Positions 46,283 through 62,267 of a stretch of 64,000 nucleotides of DNA are shown here, piece after piece; the stretch's first letter is position 1; the number at the start of each line of letters is the position of its first letter. A program made the position numbers and the translations under genes. The DNA lies in assembly GCF_040147005.1 (NCBI RefSeq), contig NZ_JAMSHO010000001.1, positions 2,852,001 to 2,916,000 on the forward strand, given 5' to 3'. Below the pieces are notes generated by a model. It was not told the DNA's origin. It did not search any database and saw only the letters and a program-made list of their open reading frames with translations. The DNA is from Halomonas sp. H10-9-1 (GTDB lineage Bacteria; Pseudomonadota; Gammaproteobacteria; Pseudomonadales; Halomonadaceae).

Positions 46283-46776
46283 GCGTCCTCGTCCCCCCAG
46301 ATCGCCCGGACCTTTTTTCGCAGGGCCAGTAACGCTGCGGTTTCCGCCAAGGCCTCGTTCTTGCGAGCCAGCTCTTTCTCCAGCGCCTTGATGCGCTTGC
46401 GCTGCTGCTTGGCCTCGTCGGCCTCACGCTGGCGTTCCGAGTGCGAGAGGCTGGCGGCCTGCTCGCAGTCATGTCGCCAGCGCTCCAGCTGTTCGGGATA
46501 GATCCCCCGACGGCGGCAGTATTCCGCGGTTTCCTGGGTGTTCATCGAGGCGGTTTCGATCACGGCGCTGAACTTGTCCTTGGACGACCAGCCATCGGCG
46601 CCCTTGCCCAGGGCATCCGGCAGGCAACGCCCCTCGGCACGGGCTTCCTTACGCCACTTGTAGACGGTGCCCAGTGAGATCCCTTCCTGCTCCGCGATCA
46701 CCTGCGGAGAGAGGTTGTGGGGAGGCAGCAGCTTGGTGACCACGGCTTGCCGGCGCTCCTCGGAGTAACGAGGCAT
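46279..46776 (-). CDS. IS3-family transposase OrfA
   Basis: A 165-residue DNA-binding protein. The HTH (VIAEQEGISLGTVYKWRKEAR) is at about residues 26-46, and a long lysine/glutamate/glutamine-rich coiled coil follows from residue 110. GGAGACACTC precedes the start. It recognises the IS ends and works with OrfB. Confidence 0.9.
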   Translation of the reverse strand: MPRYSEERRQAVVTKLLPPHNLSPQVIAEQEGISLGTVYKWRKEARAEGRCLPDALGKGADGWSSKDKFSAVIETASMNTQETAEYCRRRGIYPEQLERWRHDCEQAASLSHSERQREADEAKQQRKRIKALEKELARKNEALAETAALLALRKKVRAIWGDEDA

Positions 46777-47374
46777 GAGTGTCTCCTTTCGCCCCTGATC
46801 GGTTTATAAGAACAGGGTATCAGAGGGTACGACACTCATCCTGACACTGGGGGGTAAAGCCCTCTGCCATCAAACCATAAAAGCTAATACCACTTGTGGT
46901 ATTGCCATTCCAAACAATACCTATATCCACTGTCTTTCTGTCACCTGTTATTGTTGGAATAAACTTCAGGGTATCACTATTCAGCTCAACGCATCTACGC
47001 CATGCGTCTATTGCCCCTTGGTAGAAAGTTTGAGATTTTGACAGAGAGCTACTCGATTGATTACTTTCAGATCGATGCGTATCGCACCATGTCTTAAGAC
47101 GTTCAGAAGTTTCAGTGCGCGAAAAATTTCCACCACCAGACCCATAACCGAAAACCTCTAATTCCGCGGCGGCCAATTGTTCGTTCGACAAGCTTTCGAA
47201 GTCACTCCCGCAGTTTCTACTGAATCTAGCGGCAGTAAGCGCCTCCTCGCTTTGGTCAATAGCAATATTACGCAACCCGTGAGAGATTATTGACATACAC
47301 TGTTCGCTGGAATGCACTTCCGCTGACAATAGAACCGCAGCTGCTAATACGTATGTCTGTCTAGATAAATTCAT

Positions 47375-47645
47375 GCTCCCTCCTTTAGCGAGCTGCATTA
47401 AAGAGGCTTTACCTTTAGATGCGCAACAGCCATTAGAAAGCAAGCTCTTTTATTAATACTCGCTTAATCTAAAACAAATGAATTATTATCGGCATTATAA
47501 TGCTCACCTCGCCATTCTATAATACGAGCCTAGTTGATAACGACATGTGTCAACATGACTGCCTTGAGTCGACATCTGTCGAACCAACTCTTTTAACGTA
47601 GACCAACGTTCGGCATCCGGCCAGAAGCAGACGTTGAGCATTTTC
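47375..47645. other. AT-rich cassette spacer
   Basis: No gene is supported here. It contains the presumed leader of the split secreted-protein gene and one copy of the motif CGGCCAGAAGC (47616-47631), which recurs at other cassette boundaries. Confidence 0.5.
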
Positions 47646-47712
47646 TGATATAACGCCAGCAATCAGGCGCGCGGGGCATGAGCGCTCCCTGGACGGCGTG
47701 GTCATGCGATAT
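47646..47712 (-). other. attC-like site separated from its gene by the ISL3 insertion
   Basis: It opens ATATAACGCC and closes GTCATGCG, with CAGG...GCGC pairing across an ATGA-containing centre. It would follow the 189-aa membrane protein gene if the ISL3 element were removed. The right-hand core is imperfect. Confidence 0.5.
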
Positions 47713-47717
47713 TTTTA

Positions 47718-49046
47718 GGTTCTTCGCAGACTGGCGTGAAAGCGAAGCAACCTTAGGCAGAGGCGGGATAGAGAAACGGCGGTAAATCCGAGTAAACTGA
47801 TGTTTACCACAAACCCCAGCCTACGGATACCGCCGTTGCCATGGATGCTACCCCGCTCTGCCTGTTCTGGAAAGGTTTCACCGTCGCCCATCACGAATTC
47901 CTGGATGAGCAAACACTACGGCTCCAGTTGGCGCCTGATGACCTGATCCCGCCAGTCTGCAGCGGCTGTGACCATGCCTGCTTTCTCGTCCATGACGTGC
48001 ATCACCGTCGCGTCCGAGAGGCGCCGTTGCTGATCTACCGGGTGGAGCTGGAGGTGCCGGTACGTCGCCTGCGCTGCCCCGTCTGCGGCCCGACACGCGA
48101 GCGCATTGACTGGTTGCCGGGTCGTTCACCGGTGACCACCACGCTGCGCCAGTGGGTGGAGCGTCTGGTCGAGTTGCTGCCGATCCGGCATGTCGCCGAC
48201 TTGGTCGGCCTGCACTGGCATACCGTCAAGGCCATCGATAAGCAGCGCCTACAGCGTGACCTGCCGGCGCCGGACCCGACGCGGCTGCGTCGCCTGATGA
48301 TGGACGAGTTCGCCCTCCACAAGGGGCACCGCTACGCCACGGTGATTGCGTGTGCCGACACCCAGCAGGTGGTGTGGATCGGCGAAGGTCGCTCCCGGGA
48401 GGCGATCCGCCCGTTCTTCGAATGGTTGGGTGATGCGCGACAGCAGATCGAGGCCGTCGCCATGGACATGAACGCGTCTTTCGATCTCGAAGTGAAGGAC
48501 CAGTGCCCTAACGCCGAGGTGGTCTACGACCGCTTCCATGTCGTGGCCAAGTACGGGCGTGAAGTGATGGACCGGGTGCGCGTCGATCAGGCCAATCAGC
48601 TGCGCGACGACAAGGCGGCCCGCAAGGTGATCAAGGGCAGCCGCTGGCTGCTGCTGCGCAATCAAGACAACCTCAAGCCTGAGCAAGCGGTGAAGCTGGA
48701 GGAACTGCTGGCCGCCAATGCCTCACTGACCAAGGTGTATCTGCTCAAAGACCAGCTCAAGACACTGTGGTTTGCCGAGGACGAGGCGACGGCACGCAGC
48801 GGTTGGCAAGAGTGGGCCGGTATGGCGTTGAGCAGCGGTATCGACGCCTTGGTGCGCTTCACCAAGAAGCTGGAGCCCTACTTGGATGGCATCGTATCCA
48901 GTGCTCGCCACCGGCTAAACACCAGCGTGCTGGAAGGTATGAACAACCGAATCAAGGTCATCAAGCGGATGGCCTACGGGTACCGCGACACGGCGTACTT
49001 CTTCCTGAAGATCCGTGCCGCGTTTCCCGGCAAAATGCGATGAACC
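47718..49046 (+). mobile_element. ISL3-family insertion sequence, copy 2 (1329 bp)
   Basis: Same length and ends as the copy at 463-1791, but inverted. A perfect 8-bp target duplication TATTTTTA lies at 47710-47717 and 49047-49054. It inserted at the very end of a cassette gene; the TAA stop of that gene falls inside the duplicated 8 bp, so the gene remains complete. Confidence 0.96.
47841..49043 (+). CDS. ISL3-family transposase
   Basis: A 400-residue transposase identical in protein sequence to the copy at 466-1668, with the same zinc-ribbon cysteines and DDE region. It is intact. Its GC-rich composition contrasts with the AT-rich cassettes on both sides. Confidence 0.97.
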   Translation: MDATPLCLFWKGFTVAHHEFLDEQTLRLQLAPDDLIPPVCSGCDHACFLVHDVHHRRVREAPLLIYRVELEVPVRRLRCPVCGPTRERIDWLPGRSPVTTTLRQWVERLVELLPIRHVADLVGLHWHTVKAIDKQRLQRDLPAPDPTRLRRLMMDEFALHKGHRYATVIACADTQQVVWIGEGRSREAIRPFFEWLGDARQQIEAVAMDMNASFDLEVKDQCPNAEVVYDRFHVVAKYGREVMDRVRVDQANQLRDDKAARKVIKGSRWLLLRNQDNLKPEQAVKLEELLAANASLTKVYLLKDQLKTLWFAEDEATARSGWQEWAGMALSSGIDALVRFTKKLEPYLDGIVSSARHRLNTSVLEGMNNRIKVIKRMAYGYRDTAYFFLKIRAAFPGKMR

Positions 49047-49051
49047 TATTT

Positions 49052-49621
49052 TTATAGGACTACAACACTAATTGCCAGCAGAGCCAAAAACATAGCCAGA
49101 ACAATCGTTAGCTTTAATCGCGTCAAAATCAGCCACTTTGGCCAGTCATTTTTCTTCATGTGTTGATTCGCTCTCCATATAAGCTCTCCATCACGGACGC
49201 GATTCCACTCCTGCTTCAGGAGATCTTGCATCAGCTCAGCAAGCTCCGACTTCACCATGGAGTACTTTTGGCTGCCACCAGTCTTACCAATATATTCGTC
49301 TGGAATCCCTTCAATTTGTTCCAAGAGGGATTTTGAAGGTTCTTCAGTGCGATTCAAGAACAGCTTCGAATGACAGATCAGACCTATTAGTTTAACTTTT
49401 TCACGATAGGCCTCTTCGTCATTCTTGTACGCGACATCGGTATACACTTCTCCTTGCGTAAGAATCTCAGACAGGATGCCCCTGACCTTATCAATCCACT
49501 CTTGCCTGAACGTCGAGATCTTTTGCTCACGGGTCAATAGGGTAGATATGAAACTACCTATTAGCGCTCCAAATACGGTACCGAGTCCAATGTAAAGCCC
49601 AATTTGGTCACTACTTTCCAT
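49052..49621 (-). CDS. Cassette-encoded hypothetical membrane protein (189 aa)
   Basis: A 189-residue protein with a transmembrane helix at each end: GLYIGLGTVFGALIGSFIST near residues 8-27 and LTIVLAMFLALLAISVVVL at the C-terminus. Between them is a mostly helical, charged domain containing FRQEWIDKVRGILSE. Both ends in the membrane with a soluble middle is a layout seen in several small defence or stress membrane proteins, but I do not recognise the family. An attC site precedes it and an ISL3 element abuts its stop codon. Confidence 0.7.
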   Translation of the reverse strand: MESSDQIGLYIGLGTVFGALIGSFISTLLTREQKISTFRQEWIDKVRGILSEILTQGEVYTDVAYKNDEEAYREKVKLIGLICHSKLFLNRTEEPSKSLLEQIEGIPDEYIGKTGGSQKYSMVKSELAELMQDLLKQEWNRVRDGELIWRANQHMKKNDWPKWLILTRLKLTIVLAMFLALLAISVVVL

Positions 49622-49649
49622 TTAGCACCTCTCAACAGCAGCATTCAAC

Positions 49650-49729
49650 ACATAACGTCTGACTTACGCACCGATTTGGAACCTCGAAGCGGCAGAAAAT
49701 TGGTCGCTGTGCAGCCGGTTGTTATGCGA
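49650..49729 (-). other. attC site
   Basis: The site is bounded by CATAACGT and GTTATGCG. Arms CGATTTGG.../...AATTGGTCG and an unpaired centre give the imperfect hairpin of an attC site. It follows the 251-aa protein gene on the minus strand. Confidence 0.75.
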
Positions 49730-49734
49730 GCACT

Positions 49735-50490
49735 TCATAGCTCACCTTGTATTCCACCATCTCTCGTTTGTTCAAAAAAGTCGGGGGGCGGCACGACATC
49801 TTGGTATTGCTTACGCAAGAACTCGATTTGATCAAGAGTGTTCGAAATGGCTCTTGTCCTGAAGATGGCGAATTTTTTGGCGCTTATGTAAGTTCTCAGC
49901 ATTGGCACGAAGACATAGAAAGAGAAAGCAGCTAGCCGTTTCCCTTCGTGCTCTAGCGACCGCAGGTAATCCCAGTAGGTGTTAAGTACGTCGGCCTGTT
50001 GCTCATCGCTAAATTCGAGAAATTTCCGCTTGCTCTTTAGGTTATCGGCGACGAAGGATCTCAGCGCTAAACGGTTGGTATCGTCAGAATTTAAATAGAG
50101 CAACGTATCGAACGCTTGAATAATTTTAATATTGTCATATCCAATGAGTAGCTTGTGATCATCTGGAAGCTTGATAAATGTCATAGGCCCGGCTGCAAGA
50201 ATGTCGAACTCATCTGTGTCCAACGTAAGCTCAAGAAGCCGGCGGTCACCGGAAAGAATTCGCTCTGTAGCGTCGATATGCGGCCCAATGGTGTGCGTTT
50301 GAATGATTAGCTCCGAGTGCACTATCCTGCCAAGTACGTCCACCATGTATCCGACGGCGTAAAGCCGCTGCCTGTGCTCTTTCCGGTATTGATTAAGCGT
50401 TTGTACAATCAAGACCGTAAATGAAGCACCCACGGTTGCCAAAAACGGCAACCACAACCTAGCAGTCAGAGAGATCGTTTCTTCTGCCAT
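49735..50490 (-). CDS. Cassette-encoded hypothetical protein with N-terminal membrane anchor (251 aa)
   Basis: A 251-residue protein. One hydrophobic segment (LWLPFLATVGASFTVLIVQTL, residues about 12-32, split by its proline) anchors it; a possible second lies near residue 200 (LAAFSFYVFVPML). The remainder is charged and helical. No family is recognised. It is a single-gene cassette with its attC site starting 6 bp beyond the stop codon. Confidence 0.65.
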   Translation of the reverse strand: MAEETISLTARLWLPFLATVGASFTVLIVQTLNQYRKEHRQRLYAVGYMVDVLGRIVHSELIIQTHTIGPHIDATERILSGDRRLLELTLDTDEFDILAAGPMTFIKLPDDHKLLIGYDNIKIIQAFDTLLYLNSDDTNRLALRSFVADNLKSKRKFLEFSDEQQADVLNTYWDYLRSLEHEGKRLAAFSFYVFVPMLRTYISAKKFAIFRTRAISNTLDQIEFLRKQYQDVVPPPDFFEQTRDGGIQGEL

Positions 50491-50849
50491 AATTTCAGAT
50501 TACATGACAGGTATTAGACTGCCAATCGCATGATTCGATAAATGTGCCGGCACATTTTCTTTTGTTATGCCGCATACCTGCCTCTCCCATTATCCTGAAA
50601 CAAAAAATTAATATTGATTCGGTTACATAATACCAATCATCGTGTCAGCTGGATAATTCCAATGAACGCACCCGCAGTATTTTCCAGTATTTAGGCTATG
50701 AGGCGACAGCAGCCAAACTCAATTCATCAGTATAGACTAACATTACTAGTTCGGCCAGAAGCGAACAGCTAGTACGCTCGACGACTCTTTTGTAGATACC
50801 TACTCGACAGCCACAATAACAGGAATGTTGCGTAAGTCTGTGTCCATAA
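50491..50849. other. Cassette boundary region with repeats
   Basis: No gene is supported. It contains the palindrome AAATGTGCC/GGCACATTT followed by TTGTTATGCC (about 50540-50571), which may be a degenerate attC. It also holds an ACCAATCATCGTG motif at 50632 that recurs near 58051, and a TTCGGCCAGAAGCG motif at 50750. Confidence 0.5.
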
Positions 50850-51992
50850 TTACTTGGCCAGATCACCTGAGGCATAGAGGTCCGACACACCAGCTAACGT
50901 CACTGGGCCAGCAACATCAAACGAATGTTCGATCAATAGCGGGGTCGGTATCTCGTTGGCTAAGATGCGAACCTGAAGCACATAGTTGCCCGGGCCTGAT
51001 GGCAGGATTGCCAGATCCTCCTCAGCGCGAGTCGTTTGGCCTGGCCGCATCGTTTCTATTGTTACGTGCGCCACCGGTTCGCAACCTCGTTCATCCACGC
51101 TCACCCGCTGATTGGCACGTTCGAATATAGTTTGCATGTTGGCAAGGTGGGCGAAACCAGATGAGTCGGGTTCCTCAGGCATATGATCGGCACGAAGTAG
51201 CGAAACGGATTCACCCTCCGGACAACGGCACACCATTTCTATGTGTGTGTCCCCGAGAGAGAAGTCAGATTGGTTAGTCAAGGATAACCGCACCTTGATC
51301 ACACGCTTCCAGTTGGCACGGTAGTTGGCGACGTCTCGCAAGTAGCTTTTGTTGACGTGCTGGTATGAAACGGAATACATGTCGCTTCGCCCCACCGAAT
51401 AGTCTGGCAAGTCGTCCGGAAAGTTCAGGAACTCCCTTTCGAAGGAGTGTGGCAGGGGCTGGTTCTCCGGTGTTTGGAATAACAGCTGGATCTCGGCTTC
51501 GCCTCTCACCATATTGGCCGCTCCCATCATCGCTATCTCTCGAGGTGAGGCGATCCCAGTGGCGCTACCCCGGCGAACATAGACCGTATCCTTGGACAAT
51601 TTACCGTAGTCCTTCTTGAGGTAGAACGGCCGTTGCTGCTGCGGAATAGAGATCACAGCGATATGCTGGCCATCGAACAACCGTTCCTCGTAACGAAAGG
51701 TCAGTTTAGTCTCTAACTTTCCATTCACGAACTCCTGGAGACGAGCATCGTCGATAACGCCTTCTGGAGACAACCCTACTACGTCTGCCGGATGTGGTGG
51801 GTTCTCCTTGAATCCCATCAGGATGTATGCGGTGCTATCTCGGTGCGTGTTGGCTAGGGCGAGAATGTCCTTCAAAATCTCCGATTTCTCTTCGTCACTG
51901 GCCTTGGCGAACGGGTAGCGTTCGGCTTTGTAGTCCAGATCAGAGCCTTCTCCTCTATAACGTAACTCCTCAAGAAACGCATCGGTGAGCAT
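50850..51992 (-). CDS. Schlafen AlbA_2-domain protein, possible defence function
   Basis: A 380-residue protein. Residues about 5-160 form an AlbA_2 (Schlafen-type) nuclease/nucleotide-binding domain: SDLDYKAERYPF, then KDILALANTHRDSTAYILMG, VISIPQQQRPFYLKK and VYVRRGSATGIASPREIA. The C-terminal 200 residues are beta-rich and unrecognised. The ATG at 51992 has GGAGGAAA upstream; an ATG eight codons earlier does not. AlbA_2 domains are common in anti-phage genes, and its neighbour is a DarTG-like pair, so defence is plausible but unproven. Confidence 0.75.
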   Translation of the reverse strand: MLTDAFLEELRYRGEGSDLDYKAERYPFAKASDEEKSEILKDILALANTHRDSTAYILMGFKENPPHPADVVGLSPEGVIDDARLQEFVNGKLETKLTFRYEERLFDGQHIAVISIPQQQRPFYLKKDYGKLSKDTVYVRRGSATGIASPREIAMMGAANMVRGEAEIQLLFQTPENQPLPHSFEREFLNFPDDLPDYSVGRSDMYSVSYQHVNKSYLRDVANYRANWKRVIKVRLSLTNQSDFSLGDTHIEMVCRCPEGESVSLLRADHMPEEPDSSGFAHLANMQTIFERANQRVSVDERGCEPVAHVTIETMRPGQTTRAEEDLAILPSGPGNYVLQVRILANEIPTPLLIEHSFDVAGPVTLAGVSDLYASGDLAK

Positions 51993-52108
51993 TTGTTTCC
52001 TCCTCTCTAACCCCACTGCTTCCCGTAAGTGCTGGGTGAATTTTCACCCGTCCATCAGCGTATACTCAATTTCCCAATTCGGCCAGAAGCGGCCATTTAG
52101 AAAAACTG

Positions 52109-52191
52109 ATATAACGCTCGGCTCTGCGGCTGGCAAAATCAGAGGCGAAGCCGGAGCTTTTGCCAGTCCGTCAGCAGCCGCTTGTTAGGGC
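52109..52191 (-). other. attC site of the DarT-HD cassette
   Basis: The site is bounded by TATAACGC and TTGTTAGGGC. Long arms pair GGCTGGCAAAA with TTTTGCCAGTCC, with GAAGCCGG in the centre. It begins within the last bases of the macro-domain gene. Confidence 0.85.
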
Positions 52192-53315
52192 TTGATCTCT
52201 GTTGAGAAATCACAACCAACCACTTTCACTGGCTCAGAATTTATACTGATAGCCGCCAAATAATCATCATCCTGAAGTTCTTCATATTTAACGAAATATG
52301 AATGTATTTTGTTTTTTAAAATAATATTTCTTTGTTTTTCAATCCATTTAAGTCTATCGGTTGTAAAGAAGACTGACTTACAGATAAATATACGACTAAG
52401 AACAGAAGGCATATATTCTCTTTTATCGAATTCTGAAAAAGGGTCACCTATGGAAAGAATGGAAATATTTCCATCTTCCTCCTTATCACGCATTTTATTA
52501 GCGGAATAATAAATACCGCTCGGCAGGAAAACCCCAGTTTTAACTCCCTTTTTCATAGCAACTAAAGCCATTCGCTTATCGAATGCAGAGCCACCAAACA
52601 GAACACTATGATTGTTAACTTCGCAATAGTTTATTAGCTCATTGACGACAGACTTTTCTTCCTCGCTAGGCTTTGTTCCAGAGATTATAGCAATATCAAA
52701 TTCTGTGGTTAAGTTCCCTAGAACCCAGAGATCTTTTTCTGTATAGCGTGTCAATCCAATCGGATAATGTTTTTCATTCTTCCTTACAAGTCTCACACCT
52801 AGATTCTTAAGTTCGGATATCTTTTCAGGCGTGATTGACAGATTTTTTCCAGCCTTTTTAGAAGCTTCAGGCTCAAACACAAGAATATTGTTTGACGTTT
52901 TTTCAAGATATTTTAGGATAAGCCGCTTAACTTCCCCCCAATCCAGGCCGCCATGTCCGCAGCCAAGAGCAGGTAATGTTATCGTCAACCCTTCTTTATT
53001 CTTTAAGTAATTAGAAAGCCAGATGAGGCCATCTTCAACATACTCATATTCAGAGGGGTTTCTCCAATGATTTTTTGTAGGGAAATTTATGATTTCAATC
53101 CCTTTCGAAAACATATCTCCTTGCTTCCAAACAGTAGGCTTTCCAGGGGCAATTTCTTTTTCTTTGCATTGCCGAGCATACTCCTTGAACATCTCAGGGT
53201 ATTTTTTCTTGAAAGCTAGTGCCACACCAGCACCCATGACGCCAACGCAGTTGACCGTATTGATTCTAATGTCAGCATCAAAATCGAAGAAATCACCTTT
53301 AACAAACTCTAGCAT
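52185..53315 (-). CDS. DarG-like macro-domain antitoxin fused to a DprA/SLOG-like domain
   Basis: A 376-residue protein. Residues 1-150 are a DarG-type macro domain: INTVNCVGVMGAGVAL with Asn22, INFPTKNHW with Lys81 (the catalytic lysine position in DarG), and PALGCGHGGLDWGEV. This domain should remove ADP-ribose from DNA. Residues about 170-345 match the DprA-like Rossmann pattern: HYPIGLTRY, LWVLGNL, IAIISGTKPSEEE, VLFGGSAFDKRMAL, TGVFLPSGIYY. Known DarG proteins have a different C-terminal part. It overlaps the upstream toxin gene by 7 bp and is AT-rich. Confidence 0.85.
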   Translation of the reverse strand: MLEFVKGDFFDFDADIRINTVNCVGVMGAGVALAFKKKYPEMFKEYARQCKEKEIAPGKPTVWKQGDMFSKGIEIINFPTKNHWRNPSEYEYVEDGLIWLSNYLKNKEGLTITLPALGCGHGGLDWGEVKRLILKYLEKTSNNILVFEPEASKKAGKNLSITPEKISELKNLGVRLVRKNEKHYPIGLTRYTEKDLWVLGNLTTEFDIAIISGTKPSEEEKSVVNELINYCEVNNHSVLFGGSAFDKRMALVAMKKGVKTGVFLPSGIYYSANKMRDKEEDGNISILSIGDPFSEFDKREYMPSVLSRIFICKSVFFTTDRLKWIEKQRNIILKNKIHSYFVKYEELQDDDYLAAISINSEPVKVVGCDFSTEIKP

Positions 53316-54652
53316 GGACTATTGCACCCTAAAACATGAAGCATTCTGCTTTTTAAAGCTTCAATCGATTGCCCATGAGATATTACCCAAAACATATTGA
53401 TTGAGTTCATGTCTGCCTTAGCAAGAGCTATAAGCATATTTAGATCGTTTTCATTTTCAATAACATCGGCCAATTGTTTTTCATCACGCCCTCTAGCAAC
53501 AATATCTCCGATCAGATCATCATAGGTCACCAAAATGACTATTTTCCTTATTGATTCCTCACTAAGCCCTCCAATATCCTCAGTGAGGATTCTCTTTAAC
53601 ATAGGCAATGACTTCACGGCATGATCATTATCAGCCCGATTCATCCCATCTATCCCCCATCGAGATTTTGGTCCTTTTCCTATATCGTGCAAATACGCCG
53701 ACAACAGAACAATTTCTTTATCCTCTTCTGATAGCTCATTATATTCGAGTAACTGATTAAGGCCTTCAGCTACTTTTCTGCTATGTGTGCCAACATCATC
53801 TGTATGTGGCCCGTAACTGGCTCTTAATCCATCAATATCATCAAGTTCTTTTATCGAAGAGAAGTTAATTGCTATAGCGTCTAGTGAGGCGCGAATACTT
53901 CCATATTTTTTGTGGCTACATGCACTTTCACATATTTCTGAAATAGTCTGTTCAACTTGACTTTTTAGAAATCTAGGACCAGTTATAATTGATTTTTTTC
54001 CGCCTTCGTAAAAATTAATGTAGTAGTGGTCTGTATCAAATTGGATTCTTGGGGGCTGTATTCCTTTAGCTAGGAATATCTTTTCCACTTCTCCCTTTAT
54101 CCATTCATTCCAGACAACGATGTAAGAAACTTCGGAAATATCTACACTGTCAGGTATAAGCAGCTCTGCCATTTTCTGATGCCGATATTCATCTGTTGGG
54201 CATCCCCACTTTTTATCATCAATAGCACTCCAGTTTAAAGAGTCAAGCATATTTGCTGATGATAAATTATAAAATCTTGGAGGAGCATCTGTATTTGCGG
54301 AAGCGTCGGAAAATACAACTCCCGCTCTTTGTTCAAGAATCTCTATCGGAACTGCAAAATATAACAGTAGGGGCTGGTCTACATTCTTCTTATTAATTAC
54401 ACCAAGTTGCATGGATGTTTTTTTTGAAAAATAAAAAGGAACGTAGTCGTGAACAAACTTTCCTCCAGAGCACAGCACAGGCATAATGCTCCTTCTCCCT
54501 TGAATCCCTTGCTCAGCAATGTTCTCGTGAGATACCCCACGAGCATTCTTTAAGTTTGTACACAACAACCCACTATCAATGATCGATTCTAGGTTATCGA
54601 TCAAAGTAAAATGATACGCGTATCTTCCTTTTAGTCCCTGTGGGATGCTCAT
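53309..54652 (-). CDS. DarT-like DNA ADP-ribosyltransferase fused to an HD domain
   Basis: A 447-residue protein. Residues about 8-215 are DarT-like (DUF4433): His14 in YHFTLIDNL, Arg54 and Arg55, DYVPFYF at 69-75, and Glu163 in KMAELLIP, where DarT has its catalytic glutamate. It should ADP-ribosylate thymidine in single-stranded DNA. Residues about 275-430 form an HD domain with His290, His322-Asp323 (LHDIGKG), His344 and Asp414 (KADMNS), a metal-dependent phosphohydrolase signature. GAGGAAT precedes the start. Toxin first, antitoxin second is the darTG order. Confidence 0.85.
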   Translation of the reverse strand: MSIPQGLKGRYAYHFTLIDNLESIIDSGLLCTNLKNARGVSHENIAEQGIQGRRSIMPVLCSGGKFVHDYVPFYFSKKTSMQLGVINKKNVDQPLLLYFAVPIEILEQRAGVVFSDASANTDAPPRFYNLSSANMLDSLNWSAIDDKKWGCPTDEYRHQKMAELLIPDSVDISEVSYIVVWNEWIKGEVEKIFLAKGIQPPRIQFDTDHYYINFYEGGKKSIITGPRFLKSQVEQTISEICESACSHKKYGSIRASLDAIAINFSSIKELDDIDGLRASYGPHTDDVGTHSRKVAEGLNQLLEYNELSEEDKEIVLLSAYLHDIGKGPKSRWGIDGMNRADNDHAVKSLPMLKRILTEDIGGLSEESIRKIVILVTYDDLIGDIVARGRDEKQLADVIENENDLNMLIALAKADMNSINMFWVISHGQSIEALKSRMLHVLGCNSPC

Positions 54653-54686
54653 AAGCTATTCCTCGCTAATCCGATGTTCGATTGGT

Positions 54687-54746
54687 GCCCTAACGCCAGA
54701 GCTGAGCCGCGTGTCCCCACGTCGGCTCGAGCTCCTTGTTGGGCGG
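54687..54746 (-). other. attC site
   Basis: The site is bounded by GCCCTAACGC and GTTGGGCGG. Arms GAGCTGAGCCG/CGGCTCGAGCTC flank a short centre. It lies between the small-protein cassette and the DarT-HD cassette. Confidence 0.85.
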
Positions 54747-54782
54747 TAACGCGACATACCCCGCATGCCGCTCAGGAAGCGC

Positions 54783-55067
54783 TCAAGGTATTGATCGCTC
54801 CAAGGATACAAAGCGCACGAATTCGGTAACACTACCTGAAAGAATGGGCTTCAATTCTTTGCGAACTTGCTCAAGGTTGAACTCAGGAGATGAGCCCAGG
54901 CAGAACACCGCCCCCTCTCTCTTGACTTCGGTGATGCTTGCAAGGGAATTTAACTCGCTCTCAATGCTCTGCAAGCAGGTTTCAACTTCCTCGTCCTCTG
55001 GCATGAAAGGTGCGGCTCTACTGAGATCGGCCTGGTCAATACGGCGAAGCGTAAGAACGTAGGTCAT
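54783..55067 (-). CDS. Cassette-encoded hypothetical protein (94 aa)
   Basis: A 94-residue soluble protein starting MTYVLTLRRIDQADLS, with an acidic middle and alternating strands and helices. The ATG at 55067 follows TTGAGG; a start four codons earlier is possible. There is no family match. It lies 15 bp beyond the lipoprotein stop with no attC site between, so the two genes share one cassette and may be co-expressed. Confidence 0.6.
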   Translation of the reverse strand: MTYVLTLRRIDQADLSRAAPFMPEDEEVETCLQSIESELNSLASITEVKREGAVFCLGSSPEFNLEQVRKELKPILSGSVTEFVRFVSLERSIP

Positions 55068-55082
55068 GTTATGCCTCAAGGC

Positions 55083-55595
55083 TTAAAGCGCTTTGTAGTA
55101 TCCAGGCGGGCAATATGCCTGAGCAAACTGATAAAGCTGTCCCGAAATGTCAAAAGATTTCTTGCAGCTAACGGACTGCTGGGAATAAACCGGCTGTTGA
55201 GCAGATTGAGCCTGTCGCTTTTGAACGTTGAGTTGCTGCACCTTTAGAGAAAACTCTGCATCCTGCTGAAACCCAGGAACGTCAGGCCGCTGTAAGGTCT
55301 GCCGCACACCATCAGGAAATTCCTGCATCGACACTGATCCATACAGTTCCCGGGCACCACTCGACCAATTCGCACTGCAAGAACGCAAACTGAGATAATT
55401 CTGTTGCTTTACCTCACTGTCGTAATACAGGGTTTTTGGCGTATATCCCCAGTTGGTACCGTTACATATAAGAGTCGCACCTTGTGGATAAGAATCGAAT
55501 GTGACCGGATATTTGGTTGCGCACCCCACAGAAGCCAACACAGTCACAATCAAACCCGCCAGCCTTGCCCCGGATCTCATCATCTCAGTTCTCAC
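55083..55595 (-). CDS. Cassette-encoded lipoprotein (170 aa)
   Basis: A 170-residue predicted lipoprotein with signal AGLIVTVLASVGC, the lipobox cysteine being residue 25. The start of the mature part (YPVTFDSYPQGATLICNGTNWGYTP) resembles a PEGA-type beta domain. The remainder is glutamine- and serine-rich with several cysteines. The function is unknown. An ATG four codons downstream is an alternative start. Confidence 0.65.
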   Translation of the reverse strand: MRTEMMRSGARLAGLIVTVLASVGCATKYPVTFDSYPQGATLICNGTNWGYTPKTLYYDSEVKQQNYLSLRSCSANWSSGARELYGSVSMQEFPDGVRQTLQRPDVPGFQQDAEFSLKVQQLNVQKRQAQSAQQPVYSQQSVSCKKSFDISGQLYQFAQAYCPPGYYKAL

Positions 55596-55678
55596 TGCTC
55601 TCAGTCCTCATCAGTTCTCACAACATGCCGTGGGTCAATCCGAGGCACTTGCGGCCCCGAATCGGGAAAGCTCCTTGC

Positions 55679-55763
55679 CGCCCAACGCCAACAGCACGCG
55701 CGGCTGCGGAATGGAGGCGAAGCCGCAATGTAGTAGACGTCGCCGTGCCTGTGATTGTTAGGA
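55679..55763 (-). other. attC site of the VOC cassette
   Basis: The site is bounded by GCCCAACGCC and TTGTTAGGA. It contains CACG...CGTG and GCTGCGG...CCGC pairing with unpaired bases, and starts 20 bp beyond the VOC stop codon. Confidence 0.8.
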
Positions 55764-55782
55764 AATGCCGATGGTCCCGACA

Positions 55783-56187
55783 TTACGTCAGATCCTGATA
55801 AGGGTTATAGGCTACTTCCCAGTAATGACCCTCCGGATCTTGAAAGTAACCGGAGTAACCGCCCCAGAAAACCTCCACCGCTGGTTTGATAAGTTGGGCA
55901 CCTGCGGATACAGCCTGACTAAGAACAGCATCAACTCCTGACTTGCTTGCTACATTATGGGCCAATGTAATGCCGGAGAAGCCAGCCTGAGTGGAAATGG
56001 CTAACCCGATGTCCTTGGCTAACTCTTCCCGCGGGTAAAGTGCTAACCAGGTTCCCTCCAGGCTGAAAAAGGATATATTGCCACCTTCAAAGTCGTGCTT
56101 TGGCAGACCGAGCCCCTCGCCATAAAAACGGGTGGCCCTCTCCAGATTCTCCACACCAAGCGTGATGATGCTGATCTTCGGTTTCAT
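55783..56187 (-). CDS. VOC-superfamily (glyoxalase/bleomycin-resistance fold) protein
   Basis: A 134-residue VOC protein with two beta-alpha-beta-beta-beta modules. The first begins KISIITLGVENLERATRFYGEGLGL; the second ends GYSGYFQDPEGHYWEVAYNP, with the metal-site glutamate. Members include glyoxalases, dioxygenases and antibiotic-binding proteins; the exact role is unknown. A homologue with the same layout lies at 60530-60946. It follows the aadA1 cassette on the minus strand. Confidence 0.85.
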   Translation of the reverse strand: MKPKISIITLGVENLERATRFYGEGLGLPKHDFEGGNISFFSLEGTWLALYPREELAKDIGLAISTQAGFSGITLAHNVASKSGVDAVLSQAVSAGAQLIKPAVEVFWGGYSGYFQDPEGHYWEVAYNPYQDLT

Positions 56188-56196
56188 GATTTCCTT

Positions 56197-56255
56197 CCTA
56201 ACGCTTGAGTTAAGCCGCGCCGCGAAGCGGCGTCGGCTTGAACGAATTGTTAGAC
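56197..56255 (-). other. attC site of the aadA1 cassette
   Basis: A 59-bp site from CCTAACG to GTTAGAC with near-perfect arms (AAGCCGCGCCGC / GCGGCGTCGGCTT). From memory it matches the classic 59-base element of clinical aadA1 cassettes. Confidence 0.95.
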
Positions 56256-56256
56256 A

Positions 56257-57048
56257 TTATTTGCCGACTACCTTGGTGATCTCGCCTTTCACGTAGTGAA
56301 CAAATTCTTCCAACTGATCTGCGCGGGAGGCCAAGCGATCTTCTTCTTGTCCAAGATAAGCCTGTCTAGCTTCAAGTATGACGGGCTGATACTGGGCCGG
56401 CAGGCGCTCCATTGCCCAGTCGGCAGCGACATCCTTCGGCGCGATTTTGCCGGTTACTGCGCTGTACCAAATGCGGGACAACGTAAGCACTACATTTCGC
56501 TCATCGCCAGCCCAGTCGGGCGGCGAGTTCCATAGCGTTAAGGTTTCATTTAGCGCCTCAAATAGATCCTGTTCAGGAACCGGATCAAAGAGTTCCTCCG
56601 CCGCTGGACCTACCAAGGCAACGCTATGTTCTCTTGCTTTTGTCAGCAAGATAGCCAGATCAATGTCGATCGTGGCTGGCTCGAAGATACCTGCAAGAAT
56701 GTCATTGCGCTGCCATTCTCCAAATTGCAGTTCGCGCTTAGCTGGATAACGCCACGGAATGATGTCGTCGTGCACAACAATGGTGACTTCTACAGCGCGG
56801 AGAATCTCGCTCTCTCCAGGGGAAGCCGAAGTTTCCAAAAGGTCGTTGATCAAAGCTCGCCGCGTTGTTTCATCAAGCCTTACGGTCACCGTAACCAGCA
56901 AATCAATATCACTGTGTGGCTTCAGGCCGCCATCCACTGCGGAGCCGTACAAATGTACGGCCAGCAACGTCGGTTCGAGATGGCGCTCGATGACGCCAAC
57001 TACCTCTGATAGTTGAGTCGATACTTCGGCGATCACCGCTTCCCTCAT
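56257..57048 (-). CDS. aadA1: Aminoglycoside 3''-nucleotidyltransferase AadA1
   Basis: A 263-residue enzyme that adenylylates streptomycin and spectinomycin. The nucleotidyltransferase motif is LYGSAVDGGLKPHSDIDLLV (Gly-Ser and the two catalytic aspartates). From memory the whole sequence agrees with clinical AadA1, but an alignment is needed to confirm the allele. The ATG follows the upstream core site by only a few bases (GTTAAACATCATGAGG), as in typical aadA1 cassettes. This cassette is the clearest sign that mobile-integron cassettes contributed to the array. Confidence 0.95.
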   Translation of the reverse strand: MREAVIAEVSTQLSEVVGVIERHLEPTLLAVHLYGSAVDGGLKPHSDIDLLVTVTVRLDETTRRALINDLLETSASPGESEILRAVEVTIVVHDDIIPWRYPAKRELQFGEWQRNDILAGIFEPATIDIDLAILLTKAREHSVALVGPAAEELFDPVPEQDLFEALNETLTLWNSPPDWAGDERNVVLTLSRIWYSAVTGKIAPKDVAADWAMERLPAQYQPVILEARQAYLGQEEDRLASRADQLEEFVHYVKGEITKVVGK

Positions 57049-57052
57049 GATG

Positions 57053-57107
57053 TTTAACGCTTCAATCAGCCGACGCTTTAGCGGTCGGCTGCATTGATTT
57101 GTTAGGC
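57053..57107 (-). other. attC site of the OXA cassette
   Basis: The site is bounded by GTTTAACG and GTTAGGC, with arms AATCAGCCGACGC / GCGGTCGGCTGCATTGATT. The coding frame of the beta-lactamase runs into it. Confidence 0.92.
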
Positions 57108-57898
57108 GGTAGTGCTCGAATGGATATAAGAATGTCCCGCGCTATAGCCTCTCTTTTATACAGATCCTCCCATCTATTGGGAGTGTCTATATTCAATGCA
57201 AAGAAAACAGGGCCAGCGGACCACTCGACCCAACCGACCCACCAGCCGTGACGGCCTTCCCATCCAGTTTTCGCACGTAATATCCAGTCTTTCTCAGCTT
57301 CAACTATCATAACATCCTTCAAAAGACGTTGATGTTCTAGCTCAAACGGAAGATCATTTTGATATAGCTTTTTTAAAAAAACCACCTGCTCTTCAGCAGA
57401 GATAGCAAGCTTTCCATCGACCCAATAAGCACCGCCCTTGGTACTAGGGTCCATATTTCCGTAGCTGATTCTACTTAGGTAGGACCGTGCTTTCTCCTCA
57501 CCGATCGCCTTAGCAAATTTTTCATACACCCAGAGTGCAGAATGTCGCATAGCCGAGCGCAAGTTCTGATCTTGATTGTGCGGCGCATAACCTCTTTTCA
57601 CTCCGTCCCAAGGAAATACCTGAAACTCGTCTTTAACTACTCCTGCATCTAAAGCAAAAAGAGTATGCGGAACTTTGAACGTGGAAGCTGGAGAATAGCG
57701 CTTCCCAGCGCGCGTTCTGTCATAAACACTAACCTTTTCGGCTGAAGCGCGACTATCAACGATTAGAATCGTTCCTGTCGCTTCATGTTTGTCAAAGAAT
57801 TCCTTCCATTCAGGCCTATCGAGTATTTTATCCTGAGCGAAAATTTCAGGAATAAAAAATATGGAAAGCAAAAAGAAAATGAAGTATCTAGTATGCAC
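57062..57898 (-). CDS. Class D (OXA-2-like) beta-lactamase
   Basis: A 278-residue periplasmic beta-lactamase. The signal peptide is FIFFLLSIFFIPEIFA. Active-site motifs are PASTFKVPH (Ser-x-x-Lys), SAMRHSALWV, YGN in SRISYGNMDPST, and KTGWEGRHGWWVGW. The pattern fits the OXA-2/OXA-20 group, but many residues differ from those I can recall, so it may be a new variant. The start is GTG at 57898 with AAGGAGG six bases upstream. The last 12 residues (KSMQPTAKASAD) are translated from the attC site. Resistance spectrum cannot be predicted from sequence alone. Confidence 0.92.
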   Translation of the reverse strand: MHTRYFIFFLLSIFFIPEIFAQDKILDRPEWKEFFDKHEATGTILIVDSRASAEKVSVYDRTRAGKRYSPASTFKVPHTLFALDAGVVKDEFQVFPWDGVKRGYAPHNQDQNLRSAMRHSALWVYEKFAKAIGEEKARSYLSRISYGNMDPSTKGGAYWVDGKLAISAEEQVVFLKKLYQNDLPFELEHQRLLKDVMIVEAEKDWILRAKTGWEGRHGWWVGWVEWSAGPVFFALNIDTPNRWEDLYKREAIARDILISIRALPPNKSMQPTAKASAD

Positions 57899-57931
57899 CT
57901 TGCCTCCTTGGACGCCTAACAGTTGTATTAT

Positions 57932-57988
57932 GTAGCATGCTTGATATTCCACTTGAACGCGCACGCGCGTTCAACAATATTATGCTAC
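57932..57988. repeat. Long imperfect hairpin upstream of blaOXA
   Basis: Outer arms GTAGCAT/ATGCTAC (57932-57938, 57982-57988) enclose a perfect inner stem TTGAACGCGC/GCGCGTTCAA (57953-57962, 57965-57974) with a 2-base loop. GCCTAAC at 57915-57921 adjoins it on the cassette side. It could be a recombination site of unusual type or a structured promoter region. Confidence 0.65.
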
Positions 57989-58134
57989 GCGCCCACCCCC
58001 TCTCATCCTATTGAAATTCCTATATATTAAGTATAGCTCGGCAGTATAGCACCAATCATCGTGCATGCTGCATATCCCCAATGAATGTGCCTGCTGCCTT
58101 TGCCCCCATAGCCGCTTTGGGTCGAAAACGGACG

Positions 58135-58479
58135 TCACTTAACAATCTCCGTCACCTTACTGGCATCGAAAGCCAGCCGTCCGGCGATCGCCTGCATCTC
58201 GACGATCGGCCACTCATAGCTCCAAGCTACATCGGCAATATCGGGCAGCGAGAAATAGGTGCTATCGCCCTTGAACGGGCAATGGGTCACGGTGGCAGAT
58301 ACTGAAAGCTTCGCCATATCCACGTCCCCTTTGGGTACATATTGACGGTGTGGATATCCGTATTCGCGCAGCTCGATGGCGTTGCGGGTATCGGCGATCA
58401 GGTTGTCACCAGCAAGGATGCGCACCCGCCGGGAGTGCGGATGCAGGGTAATACGGGGGTCGGCGGTGTGATCGGCCAT
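58135..58479 (-). CDS. DUF427 protein
   Basis: A 114-residue DUF427 protein. Family landmarks are RVRILAGDNLIADTRNAIELRE, YVPKGDVDM, THCPFKGDSTYFSL and VAWSYEWP. It is a small beta-tent fold of unknown biochemical role. Its GC content and codon use resemble the chromosome rather than the cassettes. It is divergent from the MTA/SAH nucleosidase gene and marks the upstream edge of the first array. Confidence 0.88.
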   Translation of the reverse strand: MADHTADPRITLHPHSRRVRILAGDNLIADTRNAIELREYGYPHRQYVPKGDVDMAKLSVSATVTHCPFKGDSTYFSLPDIADVAWSYEWPIVEMQAIAGRLAFDASKVTEIVK

Positions 58480-58686
58480 CGGCAGCTCCCTTGCGAACCG
58501 GCTGATCTATCAGCCTAGAACGAGGGCCTCAGAATGTCACCGCCTGGTGACAAATTTGATTTGGCCTTTGATCTGCGTCTATCTTCCGCGAACCGTCCGC
58601 TCAGCACCAGCCGGACCATCGTGATTGGCACCAACGCCCCTGCCCGCCATGATGGTGGCTTTATTGGGCTGCGGGAGACTCTCGGG

Positions 58687-59343
58687 ATGAGCAATACACC
58701 ACGCACACCGGCGCCGCTGACGGAATTAGGCGGCCGGTCGATCCTCTTCGTGATGGCGGCTGAGCCTGAATACGGCCCGCATCTTCGGGAGCGCTTCACG
58801 CCCTTCATGACCGGCGTGGGGCCGGTCGAGGCGGCGGTGGAACTCACCGCGGCGCTGGCGGGGCTGGAGGCGCGCGGGCGGCTGCCGGACCTGGTGGTGT
58901 CGCTGGGCTCGGCGGGCAGCCGGGCGCTGGAGCAGACCGAGGTCTACCAGGCGACCTCGGTGGCCTACCGCGACATGGACGCCACCCCGCTTGGCTTCGC
59001 GACGGGCGTCACGCCCTTCCTCGACCTGCCGGCCACCCTGCCCCTGCCGCTGCGCATTCCCGGGATTCACGAGGCGACGCTCTCCACCGGAGCCGATATC
59101 GTCTCCGGCGCGGCCTATGACGCCATCACCGCCGACATGGTGGACATGGAGAGCTACGCCGGCCTGCGCGCCTGCACGCGCTTTGCGGTGCCGCTGGTGG
59201 TGCTGCGCGGCATCTCCGACGGCAAGGCGGAGCTGAACCATATCGACGACTGGACGGAATACCTTCACATCATCGACGAGAAGCTGGCCGGCGCCGTGGA
59301 CCGCCTCGAGGCGGCGATCCGGGAGGGGCTGCTGACGCGCTGA
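58687..59343 (+). CDS. 5'-methylthioadenosine/S-adenosylhomocysteine nucleosidase-like phosphorylase-superfamily protein
   Basis: A 218-residue PNP_UDP-fold protein. Typical elements are ILFVMAAEPEYGPHL at the start, TGVGPVEAAVELTAAL, VVSLGSAGSRAL, and the catalytic region ADMVDMESYAGLRACTRFAVPLVVLRGISD split around VDMESYA, with the aspartate in GISDGK. The enzyme would split MTA or SAH, or a related nucleoside. I chose ATG 58687; the frame is open upstream without support. Chromosome-like composition. Confidence 0.8.
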   Translation: MSNTPRTPAPLTELGGRSILFVMAAEPEYGPHLRERFTPFMTGVGPVEAAVELTAALAGLEARGRLPDLVVSLGSAGSRALEQTEVYQATSVAYRDMDATPLGFATGVTPFLDLPATLPLPLRIPGIHEATLSTGADIVSGAAYDAITADMVDMESYAGLRACTRFAVPLVVLRGISDGKAELNHIDDWTEYLHIIDEKLAGAVDRLEAAIREGLLTR

Positions 59344-59433
59344 GGCGCCGGGCCCGGGGTGGCGTTCAGTGCCGTCCGGGCGCCGAGCTTCTAGGCTGGG
59401 GAGGAGGATTCGCACCGCCAAAGGAGAGTAGAA

Positions 59434-60429
59434 ATGTCCGCCACCCGCAGGACCTCCCCCGCCCTGGAGCGGGTCCACCTGGTGTGGGACCTGCTCATCA
59501 TCGTGCTGGTGATCGCCAACCTGGCCCTGCTGCTGTTCGACAGCCTCTACTTGCTGCCGCCGCTGAACGCCGCCTTCGAGGCCGTGGCCCCGGGCCTGCA
59601 CGGCGCCTACGAGCAGCATATCCACGCCAACTTCCTCGCCATCGACCTGGCATTCGTGTCGATCTTCCTGTTCGACGTGCTGCTGGGCTGGGCGGTGGCC
59701 ATCGCCGAGCGCCACTACCATCGCTGGTTCTTCTACCCCTTCGTGCACTGGTACGACGTGCTCGGCTGCATCCCGCTTAGTGGCTTTCGGCTGCTGCGCA
59801 TCCTGCGCGTCATCTCGCTGCTGCACCGCCTGCAGCGCATGGGGCTGATCGACGTGCGCCGCTGGTATCTCTACTCCGTGGTCGCCAAGTACTACGACAT
59901 CCTGCTCGAGGAGCTCACCGACCGCATCGCCCTGCGCATGCTCGACAACGTGCAGCGGGAGATCCGCCAGAGCGACGGGTTCTCCGCCCCGCTGATGGAG
60001 CGGGTGGTCCGGCCCCGCAAGCAGGCGCTGATCCACGAGATCGGCCAGCGGCTGGAGGCCATGGCGGGCGACACCTATGCCCACAACCGCGCCGACACCC
60101 TGCGCTACGTGCGCGGGCTGGTCGGCCGTACCCTGGCGGAGAGCCCGGAGCTCAAGCGCCTCGGGCGCCTGCCGCTGGGCGGCCAGCTGACCCGGGGGCT
60201 CGAGGCTTCGCTCTCCGACCTGGCCTGCCGCCTGGTTGACGAGGCCCTGGCGGGCCTCAAGTCGGCGGAGTTCTCCGCCCTGGTGGAGCACCTGGCCGAG
60301 AGCGGCTTCGATGCCTGGCTGCGCACCGACCCGCAGACCGAGCGGATCACCGAGCAGGTGCTGGTGGACATGCTGGAGCTGCTCAAGGAGCAGATCGCGG
60401 TCAAGGGCTGGCAGCACCGCTATCAGTAA
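59434..60429 (+). CDS. Ion-channel-like membrane protein with voltage-sensor-type segment
   Basis: A 331-residue protein. Four hydrophobic spans lie in the first 140 residues, and FRLLRILRVISLLHRLQRM (about residues 112-130) repeats arginines like an S4 helix. The remaining 190 residues are soluble, helical and charged. No pore-loop selectivity filter is visible, so it may be a sensor-only or divergent channel. AGGAGAG precedes the start. It is 90 bp downstream of the nucleosidase gene. Confidence 0.65.
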   Translation: MSATRRTSPALERVHLVWDLLIIVLVIANLALLLFDSLYLLPPLNAAFEAVAPGLHGAYEQHIHANFLAIDLAFVSIFLFDVLLGWAVAIAERHYHRWFFYPFVHWYDVLGCIPLSGFRLLRILRVISLLHRLQRMGLIDVRRWYLYSVVAKYYDILLEELTDRIALRMLDNVQREIRQSDGFSAPLMERVVRPRKQALIHEIGQRLEAMAGDTYAHNRADTLRYVRGLVGRTLAESPELKRLGRLPLGGQLTRGLEASLSDLACRLVDEALAGLKSAEFSALVEHLAESGFDAWLRTDPQTERITEQVLVDMLELLKEQIAVKGWQHRYQ

Positions 60430-60458
60430 GCCGTAGGCCCGCCGGCGGTCACTCCATG

Positions 60459-60492
60459 AAAAAGCCGCCATGGTCGGGAAGGCCATGGCGGC
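60459..60492 (-). terminator. Terminator for the minus-strand second array
   Basis: Perfect 10-bp stem GCCGCCATGG (60464-60473) / CCATGGCGGC (60483-60492). On the minus strand it is followed by TTTTT, so it ends transcripts coming from the VOC gene; on the plus strand it lacks a T-tract. Confidence 0.75.
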
Positions 60493-60529
60493 ATGAGGTC
60501 GGCCGCGCGCCGGTGCCTGCTGCGCCTTG

Positions 60530-60946
60530 TCATGCAGGCTCATCTGATGGGCCGACCCAAAACAATGGATTATGCGCTATTTCCCACAGATAACCGTCTG
60601 GATCGGCAAAATATCCGGCATACCCACCCCAGCTGGTTTTCTGTGCGGGCTTGGTCACTACGGCACCCGCGGAGGCAGCCTGAGCCATAACGTGATCTAC
60701 CTCCTGCTCAGAGCTCACATTGTGCGCTAGGCTAAACCCCGCAAATCCGCTTGTGCCCCCAACGACTGACGCATCTGCGGCCAGTGCTTCGCGACCGTAT
60801 AAACCTAGCCAAGTACCATTCAACGTAAAAAATGCCACCTCAGGCGGAGATTCCATTCGCGGAAGCCCGAGCCCCCTCTCATAAAACGCCACAGAGCGCT
60901 TCAGGTCACTTACTCCCAAGGTGACCATGCTAATCCTTGGTTTCAT
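60530..60946 (-). CDS. VOC-superfamily protein, second copy
   Basis: A 138-residue VOC protein starting MKPRISMVTLGVSDLKRSV, with AGYFADPDGYLWEIAHNP near the end. It is clearly homologous to the cassette protein at 55783-56187, with the same SWGGY/FWGGY turn. The ATG at 60946 gives the family start; ten more residues upstream are open. No attC site is obvious after its stop; a terminator follows instead. Confidence 0.83.
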   Translation of the reverse strand: MKPRISMVTLGVSDLKRSVAFYERGLGLPRMESPPEVAFFTLNGTWLGLYGREALAADASVVGGTSGFAGFSLAHNVSSEQEVDHVMAQAASAGAVVTKPAQKTSWGGYAGYFADPDGYLWEIAHNPLFWVGPSDEPA

Positions 60947-61543: not shown

Positions 61544-61559
61544 GATCTCTCCCTGGAAC

Positions 61560-62176: not shown

Positions 62177-62187
62177 GAGCTCCTTAC

Positions 62188-62260: not shown

Positions 62261-62267
62261 TGGTAGC

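Follow-up and report, generated by a model that had tools for sequence, protein, structure and literature searches.

A candidate distinct lineage of DarTG-like systems pairs an HD-fused DarT toxin with a macro-SLOG antitoxin

INTRODUCTION

DarTG is one of the few known systems that halt phages by chemically tagging DNA. In the DarTG2 form, which works by reversible DNA ADP-ribosylation, the gene of the toxin DarT is followed by that of the antitoxin DarG, which carries a macro domain with a catalytic lysine (PMC5179494) and a C-terminal domain that blocks the toxin by mimicking single-stranded DNA (ssDNA) (PMC11481870). The DarTG1 form likewise pairs a DNA ADP-ribosyltransferase with an eraser gene (PMC11543638). 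Macro-SLOG fusions have already been reported for viruses, and viral SLOG domains were assigned mainly to a YpsA-like clade (PMC9503650). A paper on the DarTG system of V. cholerae called the sensing of infection an unknown mechanism (PMC11481870). Here, we describe a DarTG-like gene pair in a 64,000-nucleotide stretch of the genome of Halomonas sp. H10-9-1 (contig NZ_JAMSHO010000001.1, positions 2,852,001 to 2,916,000), referred to below as the window. Its toxin joins DarT to an HD domain, and its antitoxin joins a DarG-type macro domain to a DprA-like SLOG domain.

An earlier note, made from the letters of the window, had described two genes overlapping by 7 bp, one encoding a DarT-type toxin (His14 and Glu163) joined to an HD phosphohydrolase (His290, His322-Asp323, and Asp414) and the other a macro domain with a DarG-type Lys81 joined to a DprA/SLOG region, in an AT-rich cassette with its own attC site. 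The evidence presented here bears this description out, and we propose that the pair probably belongs to a distinct lineage of macrodomain-type (DarTG2-like) toxin-antitoxin or antiphage systems. A writer with a second conserved catalytic site and an eraser with a DprA-like domain would predict new DNA chemistry, and such a lineage bears on how DarTG senses infection.

RESULTS AND DISCUSSION

Domain architecture of the gene pair

The toxin gene (53309..54652), identified from its open reading frame (ORF), Pfam, PADLOC, and homologs, and the antitoxin gene (52185..53315), identified from its ORF, Pfam, PADLOC, NCBIfam, and profile-profile comparison, both lie on the minus strand, toxin first, with the 7-bp overlap that the note had described. 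Conservation was read from 78 related loci, found by scanning one genome per species, of which 46 encode an HD-fused DarT and 32 a DarT without HD; individual loci are given by L numbers. This sample is biased by search motifs derived from the query, and counts from it denote associations rather than frequencies. Separately, a protein search yielded 910 toxin relatives and 2051 antitoxin relatives, and the best 120 of each were examined.

The 447-residue toxin matches Pfam DarT (PF14487) above the cut-off over residues 13 to 211 (54020..54616, minus strand; E = 9.9e-36) and the PADLOC DarT model at 9e-41. Compared with structures, the toxin profile is nearest to thymidine-type DarT (7omv, 94 bits), with 19 bits for the guanine-type DarT1 (8baq). 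The catalytic residues of Thermus DarT are R51, H65, Y71, M78, H119, and E160 (PMC9967889), and in an alignment to 7omv, assuming one extra first residue in the crystallized chain, five of these six positions correspond to R54, H68, Y74, M81, and E163 of the window toxin. All five are kept in 44 to 46 of the 46 HD-fused relatives, E163 in every one. The 376-residue antitoxin has a single Pfam match, to Macro (residues 18 to 132; 52920..53264, minus strand; E = 1.7e-17), with no NADAR domain found by Pfam. It also matches the PADLOC DarG model (3.9e-59), and the solved structures nearest to its macro half are 5m3i and 5m31, both DarG macro domains. K81 aligns with the lysine of the DarG catalytic site, K80 in Taq DarG. 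It is conserved in all 54 rows, and toxin residue H14 in 56 of 57; both counts include some viral loci twice.

Downstream of DarT, the toxin carries a Pfam HD match (residues 288 to 371; 53540..53791, minus strand; E = 1.3e-8, 35.6 bits against a cut-off of 22), and the H..HD..D metal site of the superfamily is present as H290, H322-D323, and D414. In the window toxin, the site also takes in K326, H344, and D378; the conserved D378, D379, and D414 fall outside the Pfam match. H322, D323, H344, and D414 are kept in all 46 HD-fused relatives and H290 in 45. Among the window toxin and the best 120 of its 910 protein relatives, E163, H322, D323, K326, H344, and D414 are invariant, while H290 varies once (H290Y). 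The pattern H..HD..H..H..D marks the two-metal HD site of enzymes such as Cas3, Cas10, PgpH, and YqeK (PMC8177086), and the complete ligand set occurs in 30 of the 46 relatives. This conservation argues that the HD half holds an intact, putatively catalytic, metal-dependent phosphodiesterase or phosphohydrolase site; decay of the domain is ruled out by the near-invariance of its metal residues in relatives.

The C-terminal half of the antitoxin (residues about 161 to 373; 52197..52835, minus strand) gave, for the single protein, a weak match to NCBIfam dprA (17.7 bits, E = 0.0016; cut-off, 191). A profile of 47 C-terminal domains of the antitoxin family compared with 30 DprA proteins scored 94.5% (E = 7.4e-8) over 108 columns, and macro, DarT, and HD control profiles scored at most 1% against the same 30. 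The alignment covers the DprA Rossmann core plus the segment preceding it. When a profile built from the family only was run against 12,036 reading frames of the loci, it matched 62, namely 55 macro-SLOG frames (some loci being counted twice) and 7 of the 30 DprA, and nothing else. The Pfam DprA cut-off of 29.6 bits is passed by L048 (30.1) and approached by L020 (24.9) and L016 (24.3), and three relatives (L016, L020, and L032) match the PADLOC PsyrA model. The possibility that this half is an ordinary DarG C terminus was rejected by profile comparison, in which 30 such C termini proved unrelated to the SLOG domain (0.08%) and to DprA (0.12%). We regard the SLOG assignment as sound on these profiles. 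Profile searches of the HD and SLOG regions, which the earlier note had proposed as a check, thus place HD above the Pfam cut-off and back SLOG by profile-profile comparison.

Phylogenetic distribution and coinheritance

The four domains travel together. A macro-SLOG protein stands beside the HD-fused DarT in 39 of 46 loci, compared with 1 of 32 loci (L048) whose DarT is without HD; the other 31 have a macro protein without SLOG. The co-occurrence that the note had suggested looking for in genomes is therefore found. In a tree of 79 DarT rows, 47 HD-fused toxins form one group (99/97) together with L048 (Chloroflexota), an HD-clade DarT that is without HD and retains its macro-SLOG partner. 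The HD label requires two changes on this tree, best interpreted as a single gain plus a single loss. The clade has members from Pseudomonadota, Bacteroidota, Bacillota, Chloroflexota, Thermodesulfobacteriota, Acidobacteriota, Myxococcota, and an archaeal bin. The tree of macro domains groups 41 SLOG-bearing rows (93/95) with one row without detected SLOG, which is L021 as judged by its nearest relatives. Toxin and antitoxin distances are correlated in a mirror-tree comparison (r = 0.89 over 38 pairs), and none of 2000 permutations reached this value. Because homologs match over the full length at up to 94% identity, a chance fusion or an assembly artifact was rejected. The recurrence of the pair in distant bacteria looks like a distinct branch of DarTG.

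Many of the listed relatives are named "DarT ssDNA thymidine ADP-ribosyltransferase family protein" or "macro domain-containing protein" in databases. The note had called the HD and SLOG domains new partners, which holds against the characterized DarTG systems, but with 910 related proteins they are not peculiar to the window. In another sample, of 398 genomes from the phylum, 26 genomes contain 29 DarT matches, and a frame of at least 400 aa occurs only in the window's own, so the HD-fused form is a minority. In 36 other genomes of the genus, no match was found beyond a weak partial one in 2. The full toxin, taken as coverage of at least 80%, occurs in 3 of the 22 matching plasmid records; phage records gave one match, which covers the DarT part alone, and 9 loci were found on IMG/VR contigs. 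On a Sinorhizobium plasmid (L208, 3261-6604), a DarT/macro pair adjoins genes for a SIR2 family protein and an ATP-binding protein.

Of 160 selected neighboring proteins, 144 were scanned; the 16 left out comprise all of L016, L040, L042, and L046, 3 of 4 of L020, and 1 of 4 of L032. No recurrent third gene appeared among the 144, the commonest PADLOC and Pfam matches (RmrA/capP and M78 peptidase) occurring in 5. Regulators of the helix-turn-helix and/or HExxH-peptidase type lie close to the DarT-HD pairs of L006, L007, L012, and L019. Two HD-fused toxins are themselves altered: the frame of L040 (5275-7308) has about 240 extra residues ahead of DarT, and that of L046 (796-2124) has changed DarT residues (N at 53 and E at 68) and keeps E163 and the HD site.

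Linkage to Hma loci

Some relatives are embedded in Hma loci, which consist of a helicase (HmaA), a DUF1156 methylase (HmaB), and a DUF499 ATPase (HmaC) and which a 2026 survey treats as BREX-related type 1 (PMC12839542). In L016, L020, L032, and L042, all found by way of DarT-HD, the DarT-HD gene is situated between the helicase and methylase genes of such a locus. A helicase gene of about 1140 aa stands ahead of DarT-HD in L016, L020, and L042, and in the same three loci macro-SLOG is fused to the DUF1156 DNA methylase in a protein of more than 1330 aa. A DUF499-type ATPase gene follows the methylase in L016 and L020, and the contig of L042 ends within the methylase. PADLOC scores for L016, L020, and L042 are 643, 637, and 650 bits for HmaA and 427, 357, and 430 bits for HmaB; HmaC scores 347 bits in L016 and 248 in L020. 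The order in L032 is HmaA (648), DarT-HD, macro-SLOG, HmaB (304), and HmaC (292); here a separate frame encodes the methylase, through either a genuine split or a frameshift. L015 holds a macro-SLOG-methylase fusion at a contig end. The L016 fusion has 5518 homologs; of the best 120, 42 have both macro and SLOG, 2 have macro alone, 2 have SLOG alone, and 74 have neither. The fusion was not found in the 398 genomes of the phylum, and none of 293 plasmid records covers 80% of it.

This linkage of DarT-HD and macro-SLOG to Hma is newly seen here. In term searches, the main text of the 2026 survey has no DarT, SLOG, DprA, "ribosyl," or macrodomain (PMC12839542). DUF4433 and macro genes have been reported between hsdS and hsdR in Aeromonas veronii C4 (PMC10569733) and from islands of V. 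cholerae and others (PMC9035990). The linkage suggests that a DNA ADP-ribosylating toxin can serve as a module of methylation-based defense, and the Hma-type loci with DarT-HD and methylase-fused macro-SLOG (L016, L020, L032, L042, and L015) deserve a study of their own.

Comparison with described systems

The pair shares with DarTG2 the order of toxin and then antitoxin gene, a DarT fold in which five of the six catalytic positions are retained, and a DarG-type macro domain with the catalytic lysine. It differs in that the toxin is not DarT alone but carries an extra HD domain, that the antitoxin ends in a DprA-like SLOG rather than the acidic ssDNA-mimicking clamp, and that the HD-fused toxins form their own clade, with one member lacking HD. 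DarTG1 also couples a DNA ADP-ribosyltransferase to an eraser, but the eraser here is a macro domain and not NADAR, and the toxin reaches only those 19 bits against the DarT1 structure. Unlike the viral macro-SLOG fusions, the SLOG domain here is DprA-like with altered signatures and is paired with DarT-HD; it shares with the SLOG/DprA superfamily and PsyrA the alignment to the DprA core and the PsyrA matches of its relatives. The HD half shares the ligand set of two-metal enzymes (Cas3, YqeK, and PgpH) in those 30 relatives, but it is fused to an ADP-ribosyltransferase, has D as the fifth ligand in the window and 16 relatives, and has no specific family match. Some relatives lie inside BREX-related type 1 loci, whereas the window pair is a two-gene cassette outside any such locus: none of the seven proteins scanned at 49735-57048 matched HmaA, HmaB, or HmaC. 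Our searches of the open-access literature turned up neither an account of DarT-HD nor one of a DarT paired with macro-SLOG. The working mode is most likely reversible DNA ADP-ribosylation as in DarTG2. As judged from its predicted domains, the pair is not a standard DarTG2, because the toxin has an extra enzyme domain and the DarG clamp is absent.

Several observations weigh against reading the pair as a distinct and working DarTG lineage. The toxin misses the NCBIfam DarT equivalog (129.5 against a cut-off of 150), and the antitoxin barely reaches that of DarG (250.3 against 250). The sixth Thermus position, H119, is S118 in the window toxin, and among the 46 HD-fused relatives it is S in 42 and A in 4. 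Position 378, the fifth HD ligand, is H in 30 of these relatives and D in 16 and in the window. The DprA/SLOG signature, which binds nucleotides or ssDNA, is partly altered in the alignment of the antitoxin family. Five of the 46 HD-fused loci have a macro protein without detected SLOG, namely L021, at a contig end, and four Bacteroidota loci (L017, L018, L025, and L034) with three genes, DarT-HD followed by an ordinary DarT and an ordinary DarG without SLOG; the HD toxin of these four may use its neighbor's antitoxin. Two more (L040 and L046) have no macro gene in the locus. Shared descent alone can yield much of the mirror-tree correlation, and the pairing of HD with SLOG inside one clade is largely shared descent and not a series of independent gains.

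Proposed mechanism and alternatives

In the mechanism that we propose, the DarT half would use NAD+ to ADP-ribosylate a base of ssDNA, probably thymidine, and the macro half of its partner would strip the ADP-ribose off the DNA. That DarT targets DNA and that the macro domain reverses the mark are both highly probable, and a role of the pair in phage defense is likely. Toxin and antitoxin would be balanced in the resting cell, and phage replication, by exposing ssDNA, would shift the balance toward toxin action. The earlier note had supposed that SLOG senses a nucleotide or DNA and that HD cleaves a nucleotide or processes modified DNA, suggestions that fit the domain anatomy.

We suggest, tentatively, that the HD half acts on the ADP-ribose adduct or on the DNA bearing it, either by a Cas3-like strand cut or by splitting the pyrophosphate of the adduct, and that the lesion would thereby become harder to undo. 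Two-metal HD enzymes include both the ssDNA-cutting Cas3 and the Ap4A-splitting YqeK (PMC8177086). A serious alternative is that HD controls DarT by hydrolyzing or sensing a free nucleotide (a dNTP, a dinucleotide, or a cyclic nucleotide signal) instead of acting on DNA or the adduct. Most characterized HD enzymes in one review do act on nucleotides (PMC8177086), and the specific NCBIfam matches of the toxin are weak and mixed (HDIG, 28.9 bits against a cut-off of 27.6; GlnD, 22.4; Cas3g, 16.6), in keeping with such a role. However, no nucleotide-specific HD family stands out, and ssDNA is the substrate of DarT and likewise of the Cas3 and Cas10 HD enzymes.

The SLOG domain replaces the ssDNA-mimicking C-terminal domain of ordinary DarG and would bind ssDNA or a nucleotide so as to aim or release the eraser. 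DprA binds ssDNA, the substrate of DarT, and the likeness of SLOG to it suggests ssDNA sensing or targeting; a role as an ssDNA or nucleotide sensor or targeting module is the one that we lean toward. SLOG may instead be a plain toxin-binding clamp that keeps DarT-HD inactive by protein contact, with no sensing, a possibility that we rate lower. The domain sits where ordinary DarG has its clamp and accompanies HD-fused toxins, and charge would suit such a contact: both halves of the window toxin are acidic (net charge of −4 for DarT and −11 for HD), and SLOG domains are basic on average (median, +5; range, −2 to 11; n = 40), compared with a median of −3 (range, −9 to 4) for 30 ordinary DarG C termini. 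Nevertheless, the SLOG fold is unrelated to that of the ordinary clamp by profile, and L048 retains SLOG although its toxin is without HD. The basic charge does not establish DNA binding, since the window's own SLOG half is only +1 and the segments matched in DprA lie close to neutral (−4 to +2; n = 7).

A bolder version of the proposed mechanism, speculative and rather improbable, would be a two-step DNA poison in which DarT tags ssDNA thymidines, HD processes the tag or cuts the strand, macro rescues only the DNA that it reaches early enough, and SLOG directs the eraser toward self DNA. At Hma loci, this would amount to restriction by ADP-ribosylation, with the macro-SLOG-methylase marking and cleaning self DNA and the helicase and DarT-HD acting on foreign DNA.

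Toxin-antitoxin cassettes stabilize integrons, and the pair could be mainly an addiction module that keeps a cassette array or mobile element, with antiphage activity secondary or absent. The cassette does lie in an array away from an integrase (see below), the full toxin recurs on 3 of 22 matching plasmid records, and DUF4433 and macro genes are reported from genomic islands (PMC9035990). Against this, the embedding of relatives in Hma loci, the 42 fusions of macro-SLOG with a DNA methylase among the best 120 of 5518 homologs, and the SIR2 and ATPase neighbors on a plasmid all point to defense, and addiction alone leaves two conserved extra domains unexplained; we consider it unlikely as the main function. 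A target of DarT other than ssDNA thymidine, such as RNA or guanine, is very unlikely: one catalytic position differs from Thermus DarT, and a guanine-modifying DarT1 (PMC11543638) and an mRNA-modifying antiphage ADP-ribosyltransferase, CmdT (PMC11618068), exist, but the nearest structures are thymidine-type DarT, and the eraser in the partner is of the DarG macro type, catalytic lysine included, rather than NADAR.

The cassette and its surroundings

Both genes form one cassette, bounded by two attC-type sites within a run of minus-strand genes. The cassette's own site (52112..52187, minus strand) overlaps the end of the antitoxin gene, and the site of the upstream neighboring cassette (54691..54741, minus strand) marks its start. 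Both come from a fold-based scan, which gave 11 minus-strand matches in 44001-64000 and 5, on both strands, in the 20-kb control 24001-44000; the attC inference draws on five sites of the form AACAA...GCGTTA. No site of that form was found at the examined loci around other DarT-HD pairs. The G+C content is 39.6% for the cassette (52112-54741) and 68.2% for window positions 1-44000, and among the matches listed the window toxin is 94% identical to the closest protein and 91 to 92% identical to Vibrio-labeled proteins. The low G+C content and the high identity to Vibrio-labeled proteins indicate that the cassette arrived horizontally.

An own-genome scan met no integrase beside the cassette array. 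Of its 13 integron integrase matches, only that at C1:2158937 exceeds the cut-off, and its distance to the window is about 0.69 Mb, so the array is detached. That region (C1:2151624-2159866) contains the full-length integron integrase (2158937-2159866) and integrase fragments (2151624-2154901). Transposase-like (insertion sequence) frames, judged by eye, lie within the cassette region at 45209-46776 and 47841-49043, and a Schlafen AlbA_2 domain protein (50850-51998) adjoins the cassette. Two similar small proteins (55783-56187 and 60530-60976) weakly resemble fosfomycin-resistance thiol transferases, far below cut-offs. Neighboring cassettes at 56257-57964 encode an AadA1-family aminoglycoside nucleotidyltransferase, which exceeds its cut-off in NCBIfam, and also a class D beta-lactamase close to OXA-2/OXA-46 that passes the generic cut-off and misses those of the subfamilies.

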